From: Candidatus Krumholzibacteriia bacterium
GTDB lineage: Bacteria; Krumholzibacteriota; Krumholzibacteriia; JAJRXK01
Length of the DNA: 41,916 nucleotides
NCBI GenBank assembly: GCA_035268685.1
Contig: DATFKK010000038.1
Location: forward strand, 1-41,916
Reading direction: 5' to 3'
The notes beneath the pieces are model-generated. The model was not told the DNA's origin. It did not search any database and worked only from the letters and a program-made list of their open reading frames with translations. Shown in pieces: positions 3,456-24,219 of this stretch. Within the stretch, counting starts at the first letter, position 1. The number at the start of each line of letters is the position of its first letter. The translations under genes were made by a program, and so were the position numbers.

Positions 3456-4837
3456 GCGACCCGCGTCCGGCGCTGGTGGGCCTCTCCGGCCCCGCACTCG
3501 ACGACGACGAACGCGACCTGCTGGCGCGCCTGCGACCGCAGGGCGTGTTGTTGTTCGAACGCAACGCGACCGACGAGCAGCAATTGCGGGCGTTGACCCA
3601 CGAAGTCGACGCCCGGTTGCGTGACGCAGGGGTCGACACGCCCCTCGTGGCGTCGGACACCGAGGGCGGGATCGTCTTCCCGTTGCACCGCGTGCTGGAT
3701 CCCGGCCCCGGTGCGACCACCCTGGGCTGGATCGATCGGACCGAACTGACCGAGACCGTCCACGCCGACCGCGGGGCACGACTGCGGGCGTCGGGAGTGA
3801 ACCTGGTACTCGCGCCGGTCGCCGACGTGGACGTGGCCGGTAATCCGGTGATCGGAACGCGTGCCTTCGGACGCGACCCGGAGCACGTCCGGCGTCACGT
3901 CGCCGCCGCCGTGCGCGGTCTGCACCGCGGCGGCGTCGCGTGTTGCGTGAAGCACTGGCCCGGCCACGGGGCCGCGCGGGTGGACAGTCATCTGGAACTC
4001 CCGGTTCTCGACCGCGACGACGCCGCGCTGCGTGCGGTCGACGCCCCGCCCTTCGAGGACGCCGTCGCCGCGGGTGTCGACGCCGTGATGACGGGACATC
4101 TCCGCGTGCCGGCATGGCAGTCCGTCGGGACCGGTCCGGTGAGCGTGGACCCGGCCGCCATCGCCCGGCTGCGCAGCACGCTCGGGTTCGACGGACCGTT
4201 GCTGGGCGATGCCATCGAGATGCAGGCGCTCGCCGGCTACGGCCCGGGCGCTCTGCGGTCGGCAGGACTCGACCTGGTCCTGTTCGCGGCACCGCTCGCA
4301 CGGATCGAGACCGCGGTGCGGGAGCTCGACCCCACTCCGGCGCACGCCTGGCACGTGCCCGCTGCGCCCCGGACCGAACCGGCGTCCGAGGTGCCCTGGG
4401 ACTTCGCTCTGCGCCGCGACGGGGAATGGCCGGTTCCGTCGCCGCGACGGTGGTGGGTGGTCGACGAAGCCGGTGGCGATCGCCTGCTCCGCGTTCCCGA
4501 CGACACGGCCGATCCGCTCGGTCACGGCCATGCCACCGGACACCGAGCGTGGGAGAACGCCCTCGCGCCGATCGCCGACCACGTCGACGTGATCACGATC
4601 GAGCGTCTGGCCGACCTCGAACCCACGAGCGACGAGGGCGTGGCCTTGCTCTCGGTCCGGTCCGGACGCTTCGACGATCTGTCCGATCGGATCGCCACGC
4701 TGCGGCCGGCGGCGTGGCTCCTGGGTGGTGCCGCGGCGATCGACGATCTGCGGGTGGGACCAGGAGTGGCGGCGGCTCGCTGCGCCGAGGTGCGGCCGCG
4801 TCTGCTGGAGCGTGTCCTGCGCAGCGGAGCCATTTGA
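3452..4837 (+). CDS. nagZ: glycoside hydrolase family 3 beta-N-acetylhexosaminidase (NagZ-type)
   Basis: The start is GTG 3452, inside a GTGA overlap with the spoIID-like stop. The 461-residue protein shows the NagZ signature KHWPGHG (residues 167-173) followed by VDSH (177-180), whose Asp-Ser-His supplies the mobile-loop acid/base His180, and DAVMTGHLRVP. LLGDAIEMQAL places the nucleophile Asp at 253. NagZ removes GlcNAc from GlcNAc-anhydroMurNAc or muropeptides, feeding AnmK. About 130 residues after the catalytic barrel (with segments such as WWVVDEAGGDRLLRVP) form a C-terminal extension; many single-domain NagZ enzymes are shorter, near 340 residues. No signal peptide is seen, so it is probably cytoplasmic. 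It is the last gene of the recycling operon. Confidence 0.9.
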   Translation: MSDPRPALVGLSGPALDDDERDLLARLRPQGVLLFERNATDEQQLRALTHEVDARLRDAGVDTPLVASDTEGGIVFPLHRVLDPGPGATTLGWIDRTELTETVHADRGARLRASGVNLVLAPVADVDVAGNPVIGTRAFGRDPEHVRRHVAAAVRGLHRGGVACCVKHWPGHGAARVDSHLELPVLDRDDAALRAVDAPPFEDAVAAGVDAVMTGHLRVPAWQSVGTGPVSVDPAAIARLRSTLGFDGPLLGDAIEMQALAGYGPGALRSAGLDLVLFAAPLARIETAVRELDPTPAHAWHVPAAPRTEPASEVPWDFALRRDGEWPVPSPRRWWVVDEAGGDRLLRVPDDTADPLGHGHATGHRAWENALAPIADHVDVITIERLADLEPTSDEGVALLSVRSGRFDDLSDRIATLRPAAWLLGGAAAIDDLRVGPGVAAARCAEVRPRLLERVLRSGAI

Positions 4838-4862
4838 CACGGTGGTTCGGCGTGACTACACT
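4834..4862 (+). promoter_or_regulatory. sigma-70-type promoter of tRNA-Asp
   Basis: TTGACA (4834-4839), a 17-base spacer and TACACT (4857-4862) form a near-consensus housekeeping promoter. The -35 box overlaps the nagZ stop codon. The expected start near 4869 lies 8 bases before the mature tRNA, so the 5' leader is very short. Confidence 0.85.
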
Positions 4863-4876
4863 GCTCGTCTGCTCGC

Positions 4877-4953
4877 GGGGGCGTAGTTCAGTTGGTCAGA
4901 ACGCCGGCCTGTCAAGCCGGAGGTCGCGAGTTCAAGTCTCGTCGCTCCCGCCA
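4877..4953 (+). tRNA. tRNA-Asp (anticodon GTC)
   Basis: A full cloverleaf can be drawn. The acceptor stem GGGGGCG (4877-4883) pairs with CGCTCCC (4943-4949); the D stem is GTTC/GAAC. The anticodon stem CCGGC/GCCGG encloses loop CTGTCAA with anticodon GTC at 4911-4913. The T arm GCGAG-TTCAAGT-CTCGT has one G-U pair. The discriminator is G4950 and CCA (4951-4953) is encoded. Loop bases T33 and TTCAAGT are normal. No long repeat suggests use as an integration site. Confidence 0.97.
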
Positions 4954-4964
4954 CGTCTTCGAAG

Positions 4965-4995
4965 CGGCTCTTCCCTCCGGGGAGGGGCCGTTTTT
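4965..4995 (+). terminator. intrinsic terminator after tRNA-Asp
   Basis: An 11-bp stem (4965-4975 with 4980-4990, including two G-U pairs) closes a TCCG tetraloop and is followed directly by TTTTT (4991-4995). It lies 12 bases after the tRNA CCA end. It is the clearest rho-independent terminator in the window. Confidence 0.92.
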
Positions 4996-5151
4996 CGTCG
5001 CGGAATCGTTCCGGGCAGGTGCTTCCGGAAGGCCGCGAATCGTGTTCGGGTTCACAGTTTCGCCGTCTGGCGGAATCCCGGACCCCGTGTTTACGTTTCG
5101 GCCTGAAGCAGGGCGCCCAATCCTCCACCGGGGCGTCGGTGCTTCCTGCGG

Positions 5152-5181
5152 GACCCTCCGGCCGGGATCGGCCGGAGGGTT
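5152..5181. other. strong stem-loop upstream of glgC
   Basis: ACCCTCCGGCC (5153-5163) pairs perfectly with GGCCGGAGGGT (5170-5180) around a 6-base loop; an outer G-T pair extends it. It is followed on the + strand by TCGTTCGTTCC rather than a T-run, so it is at best a weak terminator. A second termination point after the tRNA or a protein or RNA processing site are alternatives. Confidence 0.5.
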
Positions 5182-5290
5182 CGTTCGTTCCGGCGCCGTC
5201 CGCTTTGGCGTCGCCTGGCCGCTGTCGCGCTCGCCGGCACGCCGGGGCGACGCTCTCACGTGGATTCGTCCGGGATCGTGGTGTCCGCGG

Positions 5291-5319
5291 TTGGCACTGT
5301 CGATCCCGTGTCCTAGAGT
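5291..5319 (+). promoter_or_regulatory. putative glgC promoter
   Basis: TTGGCA (5291-5296), a 17-base spacer and TAGAGT (5314-5319) lie 70 bases before glgC. The -10 box sits in CTAGAGT, a form that recurs upstream of other genes in this window. Confidence 0.55.
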
Positions 5320-5388
5320 ACAGCCTGCTGGCGGTCGCCTTCTCCGGGCCCGGCTGCTGGTCACCGTGGTCCCCGGCCCCCGATCACC

Positions 5389-6654
5389 ATGGTCCGATCC
5401 CGCAGCGCTGGTGGTGTCCTCGCCGTCGTTCTCGCCGGTGGAGAGGGGCGTCGCCTGCTCCCCCTGACGCGGGACCGCAGCAAGCCGGCGGTTCCCTTCG
5501 CCGGTCGCTACCGCGTCATCGACTTCGTCCTGTCGAACCTCGTGAACTCGGGAGTCGACCGGATCTACGTGCTGACCCAGTACAAGGCGCAGTCGCTGAT
5601 CGAACACCTGCAGCGGGCGTGGATTCGCATGCAGGGGCGCGACTCCTTCCTGGTGGCCGTCCCGGCGCAGATGCAGACGGGATCGAGCTGGTACTGCGGA
5701 ACGGCGAATGCCGTGCACCAGAACCTGCACCTGCTTCGACGCTGCCCGGCCGAGGTGGTCGCGGTGTTCGGCGCCGACCACATCTACAAGATGAACGTGG
5801 AGCAGATGGTCGACTTCCATCACGCGCGCAAGGCGGCCGTGACGGTGGCCGCCCTGGCGGTGCCGGTGGAGCAGGCCACGTCGTTCGGGGTGATCGAGGT
5901 CGACGACAAGGCCCGGATCGTGGGCTTCCAGGAGAAACCGGAGAACCCGCGCCCGATCCCGGGCAACGAGAGCCACGCACTGGTGTCGATGGGCAACTAC
6001 CTGTTCGCCCCCGACGTCCTCGAGCACGCCCTGCTGCACGACGCCGACGACGCCGGCAGCGACAACGACTTCGGCCGTGACGTGCTTCCCTACCTGCTCG
6101 ACCGCGAGCCGATGTTCGCCTACGACTTCCGGCGCAACCGGATCCCGAGCGAGCGCGAGTTCGAACGCGCCTACTGGCGCGACATCGGGAGTATCGAGGC
6201 CTACTACGACGCGAACATGGACCTGCGCCGCGTGCAGCCGCGACTGAACCTGTACAACTGGGACTGGCCGATCCACACTGCGAGCTTCGCCGACCCCCCG
6301 GCCAAGTTCGTGTTCGACGAGTCGAACCGGCGGGGCATGGCGATCGATTCGATCCTCGCCGGCGGTTCGATCGTTGCCGGGGGTTACGTGCGCGACAGCG
6401 TGATCGGTCGCAACGTCTTCGTCGACGCCGGGGCCCGGGTGATCGAGTCGATCATCCAGGACAACGTCACCATTGCTCCGGGAGCCGAGATCGTCCGGGC
6501 GATCGTCGACAAGAACGCGCAGATCCCTGCGGGAGCGCAGATCAAGCCCGAGCACGATCCCGTCATCGCGGGGTCGATCGTCACGAACACCGGAATCACC
6601 GTCGTCCCCCGCGCCACGCATCCGCCGGAGCACGCAGACGCACGTGAACACTGA
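5389..6654 (+). CDS. glgC: glucose-1-phosphate adenylyltransferase GlgC
   Basis: The enzyme makes ADP-glucose from glucose-1-phosphate and ATP, the committed step of bacterial glycogen synthesis. The 421-residue length is normal. The nucleotidyltransferase part shows VVLAGGEGRRLLPLT, RSKPAVPFAGRYRVIDFVLSN, the GTANAV motif, VFGADHIYKM with the metal-binding Asp, VGFQEKP and SMGNYLF, then DFGRDVLP and YWRDIGSIEAYY. The C-terminal left-handed beta-helix appears as repeats such as GGSIVAGGYVRDSVIGRNVF. The start ATG 5389 gives the usual short lead before the GGxGxRL motif; the ribosome site is poor. It overlaps the next gene by 11 bases, linking ADP-glucose supply to an alpha-glucan-active GH57 enzyme. 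Confidence 0.96.
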   Translation: MVRSRSAGGVLAVVLAGGEGRRLLPLTRDRSKPAVPFAGRYRVIDFVLSNLVNSGVDRIYVLTQYKAQSLIEHLQRAWIRMQGRDSFLVAVPAQMQTGSSWYCGTANAVHQNLHLLRRCPAEVVAVFGADHIYKMNVEQMVDFHHARKAAVTVAALAVPVEQATSFGVIEVDDKARIVGFQEKPENPRPIPGNESHALVSMGNYLFAPDVLEHALLHDADDAGSDNDFGRDVLPYLLDREPMFAYDFRRNRIPSEREFERAYWRDIGSIEAYYDANMDLRRVQPRLNLYNWDWPIHTASFADPPAKFVFDESNRRGMAIDSILAGGSIVAGGYVRDSVIGRNVFVDAGARVIESIIQDNVTIAPGAEIVRAIVDKNAQIPAGAQIKPEHDPVIAGSIVTNTGITVVPRATHPPEHADAREH

Positions 6655-18763: not shown

Positions 18764-19597
18764 TCAGAACCGTCCCCGGGCCCTCTCCTTCTGTGGAAGG
18801 ACCTCGAGGCAACTCGTCCACCAACCGGTCTCGATCGTCTCGACGAATTCGCGCGGCAATCGTTCGTCGCGCATCTCGCGGGCCAGGGCTTCGTGGTCGT
18901 ACTCCACGCGCCGGAACTCGACCCGGGGCCGAACGCGGGCTCCGTCGTCCACCGGGACCTCGATGCGTGCGTACCACACGGCGGGATCGCCGTCGTTCGC
19001 GGGGCGCCCGATGGCTCCCACGTTCACCAGCCCACGACCCGGATCGCCGGCCAGCATGCGGCTCCAGTGGAGACCGGTGTGCGTCACCAGGATCAGGTCT
19101 GCTTCGTGTTCGGCGAGCAGCCGTTCCACGAATCCCTCCGGTGTCGTCGACTCCCACAGGAACTCGTTCACGCGACGCGGTGATCCGTGGGCGCACAGGA
19201 CACGGAGTCCTCCCAGCCGTAGGCGGACGTGTCGGGGAAGGCTCCGCATCCAGCGGCGGTTCTCGTCACCGGTGTTCTCCAGCGTGTAGGCGTAGCTGAT
19301 ACGGGCGAAGTGCTCGTCCCGGGGGTCGGAGTATCCACACTGGCAATCCTCGAGTCCGTGGCCCACGCTGTCGTCGTAGTTGCCCTGCAGCACGACGATG
19401 CCGTCTTCGCGCAGTCGATCGGCGGAGTGGTCGGGGTGGGGACCGAAGCCGCCCACGTCACCCAGGCACAGCACCCGGTCGGCTCCCCAGTCCGCGGCAT
19501 CCGTGAGGACGGCGTCGAGGGCCCGGTGGTTGCTGTAGACCCCGCCGAAGACGGCGAGCCGTCGATGGTTCCCGGGCAGCGTCATCAGGTCCGACAC
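18764..19597 (-). CDS. metallophosphoesterase-fold protein with altered metal motif I
   Basis: The start is GTG 19597, with GGAGGG 6 bases upstream; it overlaps the radical SAM gene's end by 13 bases. The 277-residue product resembles calcineurin-type phosphoesterases of the YfcE/single-domain class: LCLGDVGGFGPHP (Asp47), VVLQGNYDDSVG (Asn73, Asp75), LCAHGSPR and LVTHTGLHWSR. Motif I, normally DxHxN, reads GVYSN (Gly19, Tyr21, Asn23), so the Asp and His that bind the first metal are both missing, and the usual GHTH is THTG. Either it is a non-hydrolytic relative or a subgroup with different metal ligands. Several Cys residues (EDCQCGYSDP) lie in an insertion. Confidence 0.75.
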   Translation of the reverse strand: MSDLMTLPGNHRRLAVFGGVYSNHRALDAVLTDAADWGADRVLCLGDVGGFGPHPDHSADRLREDGIVVLQGNYDDSVGHGLEDCQCGYSDPRDEHFARISYAYTLENTGDENRRWMRSLPRHVRLRLGGLRVLCAHGSPRRVNEFLWESTTPEGFVERLLAEHEADLILVTHTGLHWSRMLAGDPGRGLVNVGAIGRPANDGDPAVWYARIEVPVDDGARVRPRVEFRRVEYDHEALAREMRDERLPREFVETIETGWWTSCLEVLPQKERARGRF

Positions 19598-20562
19598 GAG
19601 AATCCCTCCAGGTGACACGTCGTGCAGGCCGAGTGGTTGAGTTCGATGGGGACGAAGGTCTCGTCGAGGTCGTCGGACATGCGCGCTCCGTCCTCTTCGA
19701 TCAGGATCGGGCAGGGGTACACTCCACGGGCCGTGACCGTGCGGCAACTCCCGCACTGCAGAACCCATTCCTCTCCTTCGTGCAGATCGTCGGGACGCAG
19801 GTAGCGGGAGTCTTCGCGGACCTCGTCCGCGACACCGCTCGTGGTCGTGCGGTCCCCGGATCGGGACGAGCGGCGGGCCTGCCGTCCGATGTCGAAGGGC
19901 GGGATGAACTTCACACGGGGACGTGTGAACCCGAGGTGCCGGAGGTGGTCGAGGAAGGCCTCGCGTCCGTCGCTCCGGTCGTAGACCGCGTGAACGGTCG
20001 TCACGGTGAACACGGGCAGGAGCCCGGCATCGACCAGACACCGCGCTCCTCGCATGATCGCGTGGTAGGTACCACGGCCCCGCACCGGGTCGTTCTCCTC
20101 GGGGGTGGTGCCATCGACGCTCACCCTCAACTCGAGCGAGTAGGCGCTCGCTTCCGAGAGCTCGTGGAGTCGCCGGGCCATGGGTGGGTCGATCAGGACC
20201 CCGTTGGTGAGTACGGAGAGCGGTGCCACGGCGAGCGCACGCTCGATCAGGAGCAGGATGTCCGGATGGAGGAAGGGCTCACCGCCCGTGAAGTAGAGTT
20301 CCTTGACGCCTTCGCGTTCGGCGCGCGCCAGACTCGAGAGCACGTCGTCGGTCGCCATCACCGGGTGGGAGTCGTTCTTCGGCCCGCAGGTGATGAAGCA
20401 GTGCGTACAGGCGAGATTGCACACGGTCCCCGTGACCTGCAGCCAGAGCACGTCGAGCCCCACGAAGTCGAGCACCGGACCCCGTGCCTCCCGGCTCGAC
20501 ACGGGGACGGCACGCCGGTCCGTCGATGTGCTGGTCGATGTCGTCGTGTTCGGGTCTTCCAT
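19585..20562 (-). CDS. radical SAM protein with SPASM-like C-terminus
   Basis: ATG 20562 is preferred, because AGGAAGG lies 9 bases upstream; ATG 20571 is an alternative. The 325-residue protein binds the SAM [4Fe-4S] cluster through C48-NLA-C52-TH-C55, followed by FITCGP, and has YFTGGEPFLHPDI and the LRVSVDGTTPEEND strand. The C-terminal 60 residues contain six further Cys (LQCGSC, VYPCP, SACTTC, FSC), typical of SPASM/twitch auxiliary-cluster domains found in peptide-modifying and other maturases. A Thr/Ser-rich N-terminal linker precedes the barrel. No precursor peptide was found nearby, so the substrate is unknown. It is encoded with a phosphoesterase-fold protein, a symporter-barrel fusion and a DUF2064 transferase. 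Confidence 0.88.
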   Translation of the reverse strand: MEDPNTTTSTSTSTDRRAVPVSSREARGPVLDFVGLDVLWLQVTGTVCNLACTHCFITCGPKNDSHPVMATDDVLSSLARAEREGVKELYFTGGEPFLHPDILLLIERALAVAPLSVLTNGVLIDPPMARRLHELSEASAYSLELRVSVDGTTPEENDPVRGRGTYHAIMRGARCLVDAGLLPVFTVTTVHAVYDRSDGREAFLDHLRHLGFTRPRVKFIPPFDIGRQARRSSRSGDRTTTSGVADEVREDSRYLRPDDLHEGEEWVLQCGSCRTVTARGVYPCPILIEEDGARMSDDLDETFVPIELNHSACTTCHLEGFSCRT

Positions 20563-20639
20563 CGCTTCCATCCTTCCTCTCGATTCGTGGAGACTCGATC
20601 TCGCGGTCCTGTTCCGGGATTCCGGTCGGGACGCGGGGG

Positions 20640-23138
20640 CTAGTAGTGGAGGTGCACGATGAACTCGATCCGATCGAGGACCGTCAGGTCGGGGTCGCCG
20701 AGTTCCCACCGCACGTACTCGGCGGTGAATCCCAGTAGCTCGTTCACGCGGGTCGCGACCCGTGCGGTGAGGAACCACTCCTCGAAATCCTCGGTGGAGT
20801 GATCCGCCGTCTGCCAGCTCGCTCCGACGTTCAGTCCGCGGACCTCGACCTCGTCGGAGTGCCAGATCGGCATCTCGAATCCTGCGAGCACGAAGTCGCG
20901 ATCGAGGGACGGCGTGCCGAGGTCTTCGATCTCCTCGTGCAGGAATTCCCCGAACACCCGGAGTTCTCGCCACTGCACCGTGAGTTCGGTTCCGAAGACG
21001 GTCTGATGCCCGGTCACGAGACCTTCGTCCGTCTCGACGGTGCGATCGAGGACCGATCGCTGCACGGAGACGCCGGGGCGGATCACCCAGTCACCGCTGC
21101 GCCAACTCGGCCGGATCCGCGCCCGCAGGGCGAGGGCCTCACGGATCGACGTGCTCACCTCCGGGTCGGGGGCATCCAGGATCAATCGCTCGCCGCGAGC
21201 CGCGGTGGTGAAGCTGCCGTTGAGACCGTCTTCGCCGGGGCTTCCCTGTAGCCAGATCTCCCAGCCGAGACCCTCCGACGGCCGCCGGTCCCAGTGGACC
21301 TGGAGGTTGAGATCCGGATCGAGCTTGTGACCGTTCAGGTAGGGAAGGTTCCCGAACCACGATCCGTCCCAGAACAGACCGAGCTGGTCGTAGACGAGGC
21401 CGGCGGCGACGTCGAGTTCTCCGTCTCGATGGGTCCACCGCGCGTAGGCTTGTTGCAGCCAGGTGTTCGACGGGCTGTAGGACCTCAGCTTCGTCTGCCG
21501 GAAGCGCAGTTCGGCCACGAAATCCCAGGCGTCCTGTTCGGCACGGCCCAGCAACCGGACGTTGTACACCTCGGTGGAGGGACGATCGAGGTCCCGCATC
21601 TTCGTCGTCAGACGGAGCATCGTCTGCCCGCCGAGATCGATCTCGGGTCCGTCGGCCCGTGCCGTCGGGACCGCGACGACGCCGACGAGCGCGATCAGCG
21701 CGGTGGTCGAGGCCAGGGCACGCGTCCGGGCGCGCGAGCGTGCGCGGTCGAGCAGGGCCCCGACCCCGAATCCTCCGAACACCAGGAGTGTCCCGACCAG
21801 ATTGGCTCCGAGCAGGGTGGCGTAGCTGCCCTCGCCCACGGCCCAACTCCCGGGAACGGCGTTCGTCGCGTGAAGGACGCCCATGCCCACGCCAGGCCAG
21901 AATCCCAGATGGAAGGCCCAGGGACCGGCCCAGGGCAGGGCGAACAGCAGGAAGGCCGGAGCGAGACCCAGGACCATCGTGCCACTGACCGTGGTCGCCT
22001 TGATGATCGCCGCGCCCGCGAACAGCGGCAGCGATCCGACGACGACGGCCCCCAGCATGGCCCAGCGTCCCAGTGCCACCGAGTCGCGCGCCACGATCCA
22101 ACGAAAGACCCGTGTCGAGACCGCGCGTTCGCCTCCGGCGCGGCCCGCGCCGCCCAGGTCCTGCACCAGCGCCTTCGCGACCGAACTGAGAGTCGAATCG
22201 AGCGTCGAACCCGCCGAGACCATCATGAGCACCGTCATCACCGCGGTCACGGCGATCCCGAAGGCCTGGGCGACCCGCAATGGAGCATCCTGGTCGGCCG
22301 CGATCCCCTCGATCCGGGCGTGGACCCCGACCAGTCCGAAGACGACGATGAACGTCGCCGCGACCAGACCTGCGAGCAGGTATCCCCGGAGCATGGTCCG
22401 CGGCCGGGTCAGGAACGCCCGGTCCGTCAGGACCGGGTCGTGGAAGGGGTAGCTGAAGGACTGGAGCACGGCGACGAGCAGGAGATCCACACCGCCGGCG
22501 AGTGTCCACGATCCCGATTCGAGGAGAGGGCCGGGGGTGCTGCGCGGAACCACCAGGGCCATCACGAAGACCAGCAGGAACAGTCCCAGACCCATCTGGA
22601 TCACGTCGGTGAGGATCGAACTCCGCAGACCTCCGCGCAGACTGTAGGCGAGGGTGATGGCAGTGAAGACGAGAGCCGCGAGAAGATACGACGCCGATCC
22701 ACTCGCGCCGAAGTACGAACCCACCACGGCCGTGTTCGACCAGACCTCGTTCATGAGACGGACGAGGACCACCAGGAGGAAGGCGAGACTCGCCATCCTG
22801 CCGTAGCGACCGGTGACGAACTCGGGCAGGCTCCGCGCGTCCGTGCAACGACGGATTCGCCAGATCACCACGCCCGCCACCGGGATCGAGAGATACCAAC
22901 CCGCGTAGGCCACGGCCCCGACGAGGCCGAAGCTCCGGCCGAGGTTGGCCGCGTTCGTGATCGACTTGGCGAAGATCCAGGAGATGACGATCGAGGCGAC
23001 CAGCACACCCAGGCCGATGTCGCGCCCCCGGCGGTCGCGGCCGCCGAAGAACTGATCGGGACTCGTCACACGTGGGGAGATCCGCCAGAGCACGGCGCCG
23101 AAGACGAGCATGGCGCCCCAGAGAACGATGTCGTGCAT
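20640..23138 (-). CDS. sodium:solute symporter continuous with an outer-membrane beta-barrel domain
   Basis: ATG 23138 follows a GAGGAAG site. Residues 1-470 are an SSS-family transporter: about 12-13 hydrophobic helices, YSLRGGLRSSILTDVIQMG and STLDSTLSSVAKALVQDL are family signatures. With no stop, the frame passes into a signal-peptide-like stretch (basic RARSRARTR, then a hydrophobic core, then PTARA, cleavage predicted between Ala495 and Asp496). The remaining 337 residues are porin-like: alternating strands such as LDVAAGLVYDQLG and a last strand FIVHLHY ending in Tyr, the C-terminal BAM signature. An in-frame GTG at codon 453 (21782-21780) could start a separate barrel gene, but its ribosome site is poor. 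True fusion with internal cleavage, a nested gene, or an assembly error are all possible. Confidence 0.8.
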   Translation of the reverse strand: MHDIVLWGAMLVFGAVLWRISPRVTSPDQFFGGRDRRGRDIGLGVLVASIVISWIFAKSITNAANLGRSFGLVGAVAYAGWYLSIPVAGVVIWRIRRCTDARSLPEFVTGRYGRMASLAFLLVVLVRLMNEVWSNTAVVGSYFGASGSASYLLAALVFTAITLAYSLRGGLRSSILTDVIQMGLGLFLLVFVMALVVPRSTPGPLLESGSWTLAGGVDLLLVAVLQSFSYPFHDPVLTDRAFLTRPRTMLRGYLLAGLVAATFIVVFGLVGVHARIEGIAADQDAPLRVAQAFGIAVTAVMTVLMMVSAGSTLDSTLSSVAKALVQDLGGAGRAGGERAVSTRVFRWIVARDSVALGRWAMLGAVVVGSLPLFAGAAIIKATTVSGTMVLGLAPAFLLFALPWAGPWAFHLGFWPGVGMGVLHATNAVPGSWAVGEGSYATLLGANLVGTLLVFGGFGVGALLDRARSRARTRALASTTALIALVGVVAVPTARADGPEIDLGGQTMLRLTTKMRDLDRPSTEVYNVRLLGRAEQDAWDFVAELRFRQTKLRSYSPSNTWLQQAYARWTHRDGELDVAAGLVYDQLGLFWDGSWFGNLPYLNGHKLDPDLNLQVHWDRRPSEGLGWEIWLQGSPGEDGLNGSFTTAARGERLILDAPDPEVSTSIREALALRARIRPSWRSGDWVIRPGVSVQRSVLDRTVETDEGLVTGHQTVFGTELTVQWRELRVFGEFLHEEIEDLGTPSLDRDFVLAGFEMPIWHSDEVEVRGLNVGASWQTADHSTEDFEEWFLTARVATRVNELLGFTAEYVRWELGDPDLTVLDRIEFIVHLHY

Positions 23139-23980
23139 CGGAGAGTTCTTCCTCGAGTCAGGGTCGCGGGACCCGGATCCCAGCGGCGTATCCGTTGGCG
23201 TCGGGCGGTCCACGGTCGACGGAGCGGGCTCGGGGCCCCGTCGTCCGGTGGTCCGCGACGCGATCCGGGTTGCCGCGCGATCGAGGAAGGAAGGGCGGTG
23301 CGTGCCGGTCGGGTGCGGCACCGCACGAGATCGGCGGGTGACAGGACCAGCGGATCGGAATAGCGCGAGCACAGATCGCGGAGGACGGTGTCGAAACGGT
23401 GGACGTCCTCGGGGCGATCGACGTCCGCGCGGGAGGGCAACCAACGGAGACGAGACCCGTGGTCCGCGGTCTCCGCCAGGGCACGGACGAAGTGCGGACG
23501 GAGGCGTGGTGTTCTCCACGGCAGGCCCCGGAGCCGATCGAGGTGCGCGTGCCGGATCGTCATGAGGTACAGGCCGCCGTCCGGGGCGGGCCCCTGTCGC
23601 AAGACGTCCCACGGGGCGCGCACGGCGCGCTCGAGATCGCGCGCCCGGAGCGAAGGGGTGTCCGTGACCACGGTCACGACCCGCTCGTAGCCCCGGACGA
23701 AGACTCGCTCCAGGGCATCGATCAGGCGGGCCTCGAAGTCCTCACCGCGCTGAGGGAGGGCGACGGTGCCGGCTGGTGCGGCCTCCGCGGGATCGAGCGA
23801 GACGAAGACCTCGGCGCCGGATCGTCCGCGCCGCACCGTCGAGATCGTCTTCCGGAGCATCGCTTCGCGGAGGGACGCCGCTCCACGTCGACCGAGCCCA
23901 CGGTGGAGGGTTCGGTCGGAACCGGTCCCGGCGAGCACCAGGATCGCGGTTCGGTTCGTCGCAGTGGAGCCGTCGGTCAA
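23066..23980 (-). CDS. DUF2064-family (TIGR04282-like) nucleotide-sugar transferase-like protein
   Basis: The domain begins TAILVLAGTGSDRT and continues REAMLRKTIS, PQRGEDFEARLIDALERVF, ERVVTVVTDTPSLRARDLERA and GPAPDGGLYLMTI, the CofC/MobA-like fold of DUF2064. TIGR04282 members were named for association with radical SAM proteins, which is the context here. Some substitutions are notable: the usual early KxPxxGxxKTRL lysine-rich motif is degenerate (GTGSDRTLHRGLG). No ATG or GTG suits; TTG 23980 just before the domain is the best start (304 residues). The last 90 residues are low-complexity, and 73 bases overlap the symporter gene, so the true C-terminus is uncertain. Confidence 0.7.
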   Translation of the reverse strand: MTDGSTATNRTAILVLAGTGSDRTLHRGLGRRGAASLREAMLRKTISTVRRGRSGAEVFVSLDPAEAAPAGTVALPQRGEDFEARLIDALERVFVRGYERVVTVVTDTPSLRARDLERAVRAPWDVLRQGPAPDGGLYLMTIRHAHLDRLRGLPWRTPRLRPHFVRALAETADHGSRLRWLPSRADVDRPEDVHRFDTVLRDLCSRYSDPLVLSPADLVRCRTRPARTALPSSIARQPGSRRGPPDDGAPSPLRRPWTARRQRIRRWDPGPATLTRGRTLRCTTSFSGAPCSSSAPCSGGSPHV

Positions 23981-24103
23981 GTGGAGTGCTCTCGGCGGAC
24001 GCGGGGTGCCGCGGTCGAAGGGGGACGACCTGGATCTACGACGCCCCGAGGTGCTCTGTGACCGGGGCTTCCTCGCGAGTGGTCCACGAAAGCCTGAATC
24101 CCG

Positions 24104-24133
24104 TTCAGCCCCGGCCGTCCCATCTGCTAGTCT
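24104..24133 (+). promoter_or_regulatory. putative promoter of the Ser/Thr kinase gene
   Basis: TTCAGC (24104-24109), an 18-base spacer and TAGTCT (24128-24133, in CTAGTCT) lie in the 239-base divergent gap between the DUF2064 gene and the kinase gene, 87 bases before the kinase ATG. The -35 is weak. Confidence 0.35.
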
Positions 24134-24219
24134 CCGACGAGGTCCGGTGACGCCCGCGCCCGGGTTTCCCGGTCCACGGCAACTCGACAACGCCTGCCCC
24201 CGGTCGGAGACGTGCATCC

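Follow-up and report, generated by a model that had tools for sequence, protein, structure and literature searches.

How can one open reading frame serve two proteins that would belong in different membranes? The question is raised by a gene on the minus strand of the window (the whole 41,916-nucleotide stretch of DNA analysed here), in which a symporter of the SSS family runs through a signal-peptide-like segment into a porin-like barrel. It is highly probable, in our judgement, that this is a conserved gene for a polyprotein that signal peptidase I would cut in two, giving a symporter for the inner membrane and a porin for the outer one. The parts of the gene are as follows.

20640..23138, minus strand: fused gene (SSS symporter, internal signal peptide and porin barrel), an uninterrupted frame of 832 codons plus stop; the same architecture occurs in a relative, L003 (4387-7056)
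23148..23154, minus strand: Shine-Dalgarno-like GAGGAAG, 10-16 nt 5' of the ATG at 23138, found by sequence inspection
21750..23138, minus strand: residues 1-463, predicted to be an SSS/SLC5 symporter with about 13 transmembrane segments (PF00474, TIGR00813, DUR3 structures, loop charges)
21717..21749, minus strand: basic n-region DRARSRARTRA, residues 464-474, predicted to be cytoplasmic (sequence, loop charges)
21669..21716, minus strand: hydrophobic core of the internal signal peptide, residues 475-490 (hydropathy peak at 474-492, score 1.94)
21654..21668, minus strand: PTARA, predicted signal peptidase I site A495/D496 (sequence; A-X-A or S-X-A in relatives)
20643..21653, minus strand: predicted porin-like 16-stranded barrel, residues 496-832 (AlphaFold2 pTM 0.75, Foldseek porin matches, relatives)

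The frame starts at ATG 23138, stops at 20640-20642 and encodes 832 amino acids with no internal stop. The GC content of the third codon position remained at 0.78-0.90 in a single frame over the entire ORF, junction included, and both halves are therefore coding in the same frame. The single uninterrupted symporter-barrel frame reported in the preliminary description, which did not give the strand, was thus confirmed. The probability of a stop-free stretch of 340 codons is approximately 0.001 from base composition alone; the conservation of the fusion in L003 is stronger evidence than this value. L003, on a contig of a different genome of lower GC content (G080), is one open frame of 897 codons with the same fusion, and its symporter and barrel are 58% and 49% identical, respectively, to those of the window. 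It was the only relative obtained when the whole collection was scanned with the barrel alone.

Residues 1-463 are, on the basis of sequence matches, a divergent SSS/SLC5 symporter, for which ion-coupled uptake is predicted. The Pfam SSF model (PF00474), which defines the SSS/SLC5 family, matched residues 38-197 above its cut-off (E = 8.8e-7; 28.6 bits against 22.8). The NCBIfam model sss (TIGR00813) matched residues 38-196 with E = 2e-11, yet below its curated cut-off. The nearest solved sequences were the DUR3 urea symporters (E = 3e-6, residues 32-195), and a profile alignment to an SSS paralogue from the same genome covered approximately 325 columns. The L003 symporter had no Pfam match at 0.001, and the subfamily is therefore divergent. 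Further, SAGSTLDSTL was kept in all five relatives and aligned with SLASSIDSLL of the SSS paralogue; this segment may contain the Ser/Thr residues of the Na2 site in helix 8 (S340/T341 of PutP).

The loops of the window symporter carry 24 K+R inside against 5 outside, and those of the five relatives 19-24 against 2-5. Hydropathy agreed with the loop charges on approximately 13 helices, with the N-terminus out and the C-terminus in; helix ends were set by hand. This suggests a periplasmic N-terminus and a cytoplasmic C-terminus, the usual 13-helix SSS arrangement, and because of the positive-inside bias we assign both the C-terminal end of the symporter and the n-region after it to the cytoplasm. 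The AlphaFold2 model of the full-length protein (five rows) was poor (pLDDT 35, pTM 0.27) and was not used, so that sequence matches and loop charges are the basis for the fold and topology of this half.

The segment that joins the halves, residues 464-495 (DRARSRARTRALASTTALIALVGVVAVPTARA), has the form of a signal peptide and can be parsed into DRARSRARTRA, LASTTALIALVGVVAV and PTARA. The basic stretch, hydrophobic core and PTARA that had been claimed for the join were all found by inspection and hydropathy analysis. Basic residues precede the core also in L003 (NKK) and in a third relative, L029 (RFRATK), and cleavage-type motifs occur at the same place (SSA/Q and AGA/E, respectively). In the window, L003 and L029, inspection and hydropathy thus located an internal n-region, a core and an AXA-type site after a putatively cytoplasmic C-terminus, as expected of a polyprotein. 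The segment between the halves of L003 is longer than that of the window and cannot be meaningfully aligned with it, although its character is the same: NKKIAATIIVLCIAIASGSSA is followed by the putative cut point, QETKEH and a Pro/Glu-rich linker. The genome of the window encodes signal peptidase I (PF10502, E = 1.5e-56). In the window, the core is separated from the first strand by only about 7 residues, a spacer of a few nanometres at most, and therefore an uncut barrel would be unable to reach the outer membrane. For this reason, we infer that cleavage would most simply allow both halves to function.

The C-terminal part, D496-Y832, comprises 337 amino acids and ends in the aromatic sequence HLHY. 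AlphaFold2 predicted 16 beta strands for this part (pLDDT 75, pTM 0.75), the barrel fold of a porin. When the model was compared with the PDB using Foldseek, the 50 matches listed were porins, porin-like outer-membrane channels or porin-scaffold designs, among which OmpT was best (E = 1.2e-11) and OprP had a TM score of 0.65. A C-terminal aromatic beta-signal was present, the aligned relatives ending in HLHY, HVYY, HAYF and HGYF. Residues 496-832 matched no Pfam, NCBIfam or PHROGs family above cut-off, and the barrel profile had no match among PDB sequences; porins were obtained only by the comparison of folds. The C-terminal part is thus predicted to be a porin-like barrel and a candidate outer-membrane channel. 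The 337-residue porin-like barrel with an aromatic end of the preliminary description is borne out by the sequence and by both programs, and its reservation that this part might not be predicted as a barrel no longer applies.

A related barrel family was observed in large genomes of the phylum of L003 (L016, 6217-7632; L017, 6903-8294; L018, 7203-8429; L019, 6370-7770), whose members share the motifs G-L-F-W-D-x-S and K-L-D-P. These weak relatives have no symporter of the present family alongside and were used for alignment depth only.

The preliminary description had proposed an alignment with homologues, and these turned out not always to be two genes: L003 is fused and L029 keeps the symporter with the signal peptide. 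In L029 (G284), the symporter runs in frame into RFRATKAGIVLAVGALLCAGSAGA, the putative cut point, EEQ and a stop, and no barrel follows it in any frame. It seems from this sequence that the partner has been lost and its signal peptide retained at the end of the symporter; the C-terminal tail is possibly cut without cargo. The L029 gene lies at 4042-5550, and its stop comes three residues past the predicted cleavage site of a complete signal peptide. In L015 (G171), each half has a gene of its own; the two genes are neighbours on the same strand, the barrel with its own signal peptide first and the symporter second, with a gap of some twenty nucleotides. The halves are therefore partners, and the barrel is normally exported. 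The order in the fusion, symporter and then barrel, is the reverse of this split order, which also occurs in L020 with a truncated barrel.

In an unrooted tree, L015 and L020 were grouped (98/97), L029 joined them (97/94) and the two full fusions lay opposite. One change on the L015/L020 branch therefore accounts for the distribution of the C-terminal signal peptide, and its direction could not be determined because the outgroup branch was too long. Three copies of the module are broken: in L020 (2490-4100) a truncated barrel precedes an intact symporter, in L030 (5018-5518), close to the end of a contig, the symporter has a large internal deletion, and in L031 (6572-7406) the symporter is split over frames.

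Full-length fusions were found only twice, in the window and in L003. The barrel and the symporter were not found in the other 79 of the 80 genomes examined from the class of the window, and symporter relatives occurred in 5 of 379 sampled genomes of the phylum of L003, all in one order. A scan of viral contigs gave no relatives. L003 comes from a metagenome-assembled genome, as the other relatives probably do. The fusion gene is thus patchy in distribution and has probably moved horizontally. Its neighbours in the window are the following genes.

23066..24217, minus strand: DUF2064/TIGR04282-like glycosyltransferase gene, upstream; a gene of this family also immediately precedes the L003 fusion
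19585..20571, minus strand: radical SAM gene, downstream; paired with a phosphoesterase gene in another genome (G003) too
18764..19582, minus strand: metallophosphoesterase gene after the radical SAM gene

The DUF2064-type gene upstream of the fusion is a conserved link. In both loci, its match to TIGR04282 was below the curated cut-off of that model, and the arsenosugar wording in the family name is annotation only. In the window, this gene and the first part of the fusion share 73 nt (23066-23138), read in different frames; in L003, the gene finishes before the fusion begins. The radical SAM and phosphoesterase genes were rejected as members of the module, since in G003, which belongs to the same family as the genome of the window, the pair occurs without a fusion nearby. 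The fusion therefore probably entered beside a resident pair, and the radical SAM gene is probably outside the ancestral module. Between the window (18764-20571) and L036 (7701-9442), which is from a same-family genome with no fusion alongside, the pair is conserved at 64-69% identity.

According to the polyprotein reading, a single mRNA frame would be translated at the inner membrane, where the SSS symporter would insert with its C-terminus in the cytoplasm. The segment behind it would serve as an internal signal peptide (N-in/C-out): with the basic stretch kept in the cytoplasm and the hydrophobic core passing outward through the membrane, PTARA would come to lie on the periplasmic side, where it would be open to signal peptidase I. 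Cleavage at A495/D496 would leave the symporter in the inner membrane and free the porin precursor into the periplasm, and the BAM machinery would insert the porin into the outer membrane. The two products would form, in equal numbers, a matched import route (porin and ion-coupled symporter) for one solute. The fusion in L003, the junction in L029 and the porin prediction support the cut polyprotein that had been proposed for this locus; we infer the cleavage itself, as well as the outer-membrane localisation, the 1:1 output and the shared substrate.

Under ALTERNATIVES we consider a nested start, a tethered protein and retention by chance. As a second explanation, a nested barrel gene initiated at an internal GTG had been offered. 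For such a gene, the shared segment would be the signal peptide, and the long frame would yield an extended symporter as well. The codon is present.

21780..21782, minus strand: GTG, codon 453, sole candidate for a nested start near the signal peptide; no clear Shine-Dalgarno sequence, no equivalent in L003

It lies in frame 22 codons ahead of the hydrophobic core, and a stand-alone barrel gene is viable, as indicated by L015. However, this sole in-frame ATG, GTG or TTG between residue 434 and the cleavage site is preceded by ATCTGGTCGGGACACTCCTG, in which there is no clear Shine-Dalgarno sequence, and it sits within the last conserved symporter helix. Further, no in-frame ATG, GTG or TTG occurs at codons 418-477 of L003, codon 478 being already inside the hydrophobic core, and a usable internal start is thus not kept in this relative. 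Whether or not the start is used, the long chain would still bear the barrel because there is no stop between the halves. We therefore regard the nested gene as unlikely.

Without cleavage, the product would be a trans-envelope protein, an inner-membrane symporter covalently tied to an outer-membrane barrel. The Pro/Glu-rich linker of L003, which extends for approximately 60 residues after the signal peptide, could in principle span the periplasm, but the spacer of the window is too short for a tether and each of the three junctions has a cleavage motif, which makes this arrangement very unlikely. The patchy distribution, the missing barrel of L029 and the truncated one of L020 are what a non-functional fusion kept by chance, with a misfolded or degraded barrel, might leave. 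Against this, the 49% identity extends across the whole barrel of two distant genomes and includes long invariant blocks such as GLFWDGSWFGNLPYLNG; the barrel has therefore been under selection in its fused form, and retention by chance is highly improbable. An assembly, binning or sequencing artefact, in which a lost stop or missing base merged two genes, might be suspected from the 202 contigs of the window genome, the metagenomic origin of L003 and the broken copies L020, L030 and L031, and is extremely improbable and already largely refuted, since two unrelated assemblies of different base composition share the fusion at the corresponding junction, L029 provides a third genome with the same symporter and signal peptide, the reading frame is native on both sides of the junction and the fused order is opposite to that of the separate genes.

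The cut polyprotein is thus the reading that we prefer, and it is likely that the gene represents a polyprotein family in which a symporter carries its own porin behind an internal signal peptide, and signal peptidase would free, in fixed proportion, the parts of a complete import route that takes one solute across both membranes. Such a fusion predicts the pairing of a porin with a symporter, which is normally hard to establish, and is a natural case in which to ask if signal peptidase is able to act on a signal peptide placed after a protein of 13 helices. It is also a warning for annotation that the end of a transporter gene can hide a porin. To our knowledge, one translation product for two proteins of different membranes is rare in bacteria, and we know of no description of a symporter-porin polyprotein; a literature search for such a fusion or a bacterial polyprotein precedent gave nothing usable.

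The N-terminal half resembles SSS/SLC5 symporters (PutP, vSGLT, DUR3; TC 2.A.21) in its SSF match, approximately 13 helices, loop-charge topology and alignment with the paralogue, and differs from them as part of a divergent subfamily in which a signal peptide and a porin follow at the C-terminus. A 13-helix SSS domain fused at its C-terminus to another domain is known from the sensor kinases CbrA and MxtR/CrbS (PMC7918813). Their partner is a cytoplasmic STAC/kinase part, whereas the window symporter is followed by a putative cleavage site and then by a predicted exported porin. The barrel is similar to 16-stranded porins (OmpT of Vibrio, OprP/OprO, Omp32, OmpK36) in its length, 16 predicted strands, Foldseek probability (1.00) and aromatic C-terminus; in contrast to these classical porins, with which it shares approximately 8-15% sequence identity, it belongs to no Pfam family and is the C-terminal part of a symporter. 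FbcH of Bradyrhizobium is a cytochrome b/c1 polyprotein that is cut by signal peptidase, and is likewise a polytopic inner-membrane protein that continues through an internal signal peptide into an exported partner. Both products of FbcH stay in one inner-membrane complex, whereas the second product of the window gene would reach the outer membrane. The fusion thus adds a symporter-porin example, well supported at the sequence level, to the polyproteins cut by signal peptidase.
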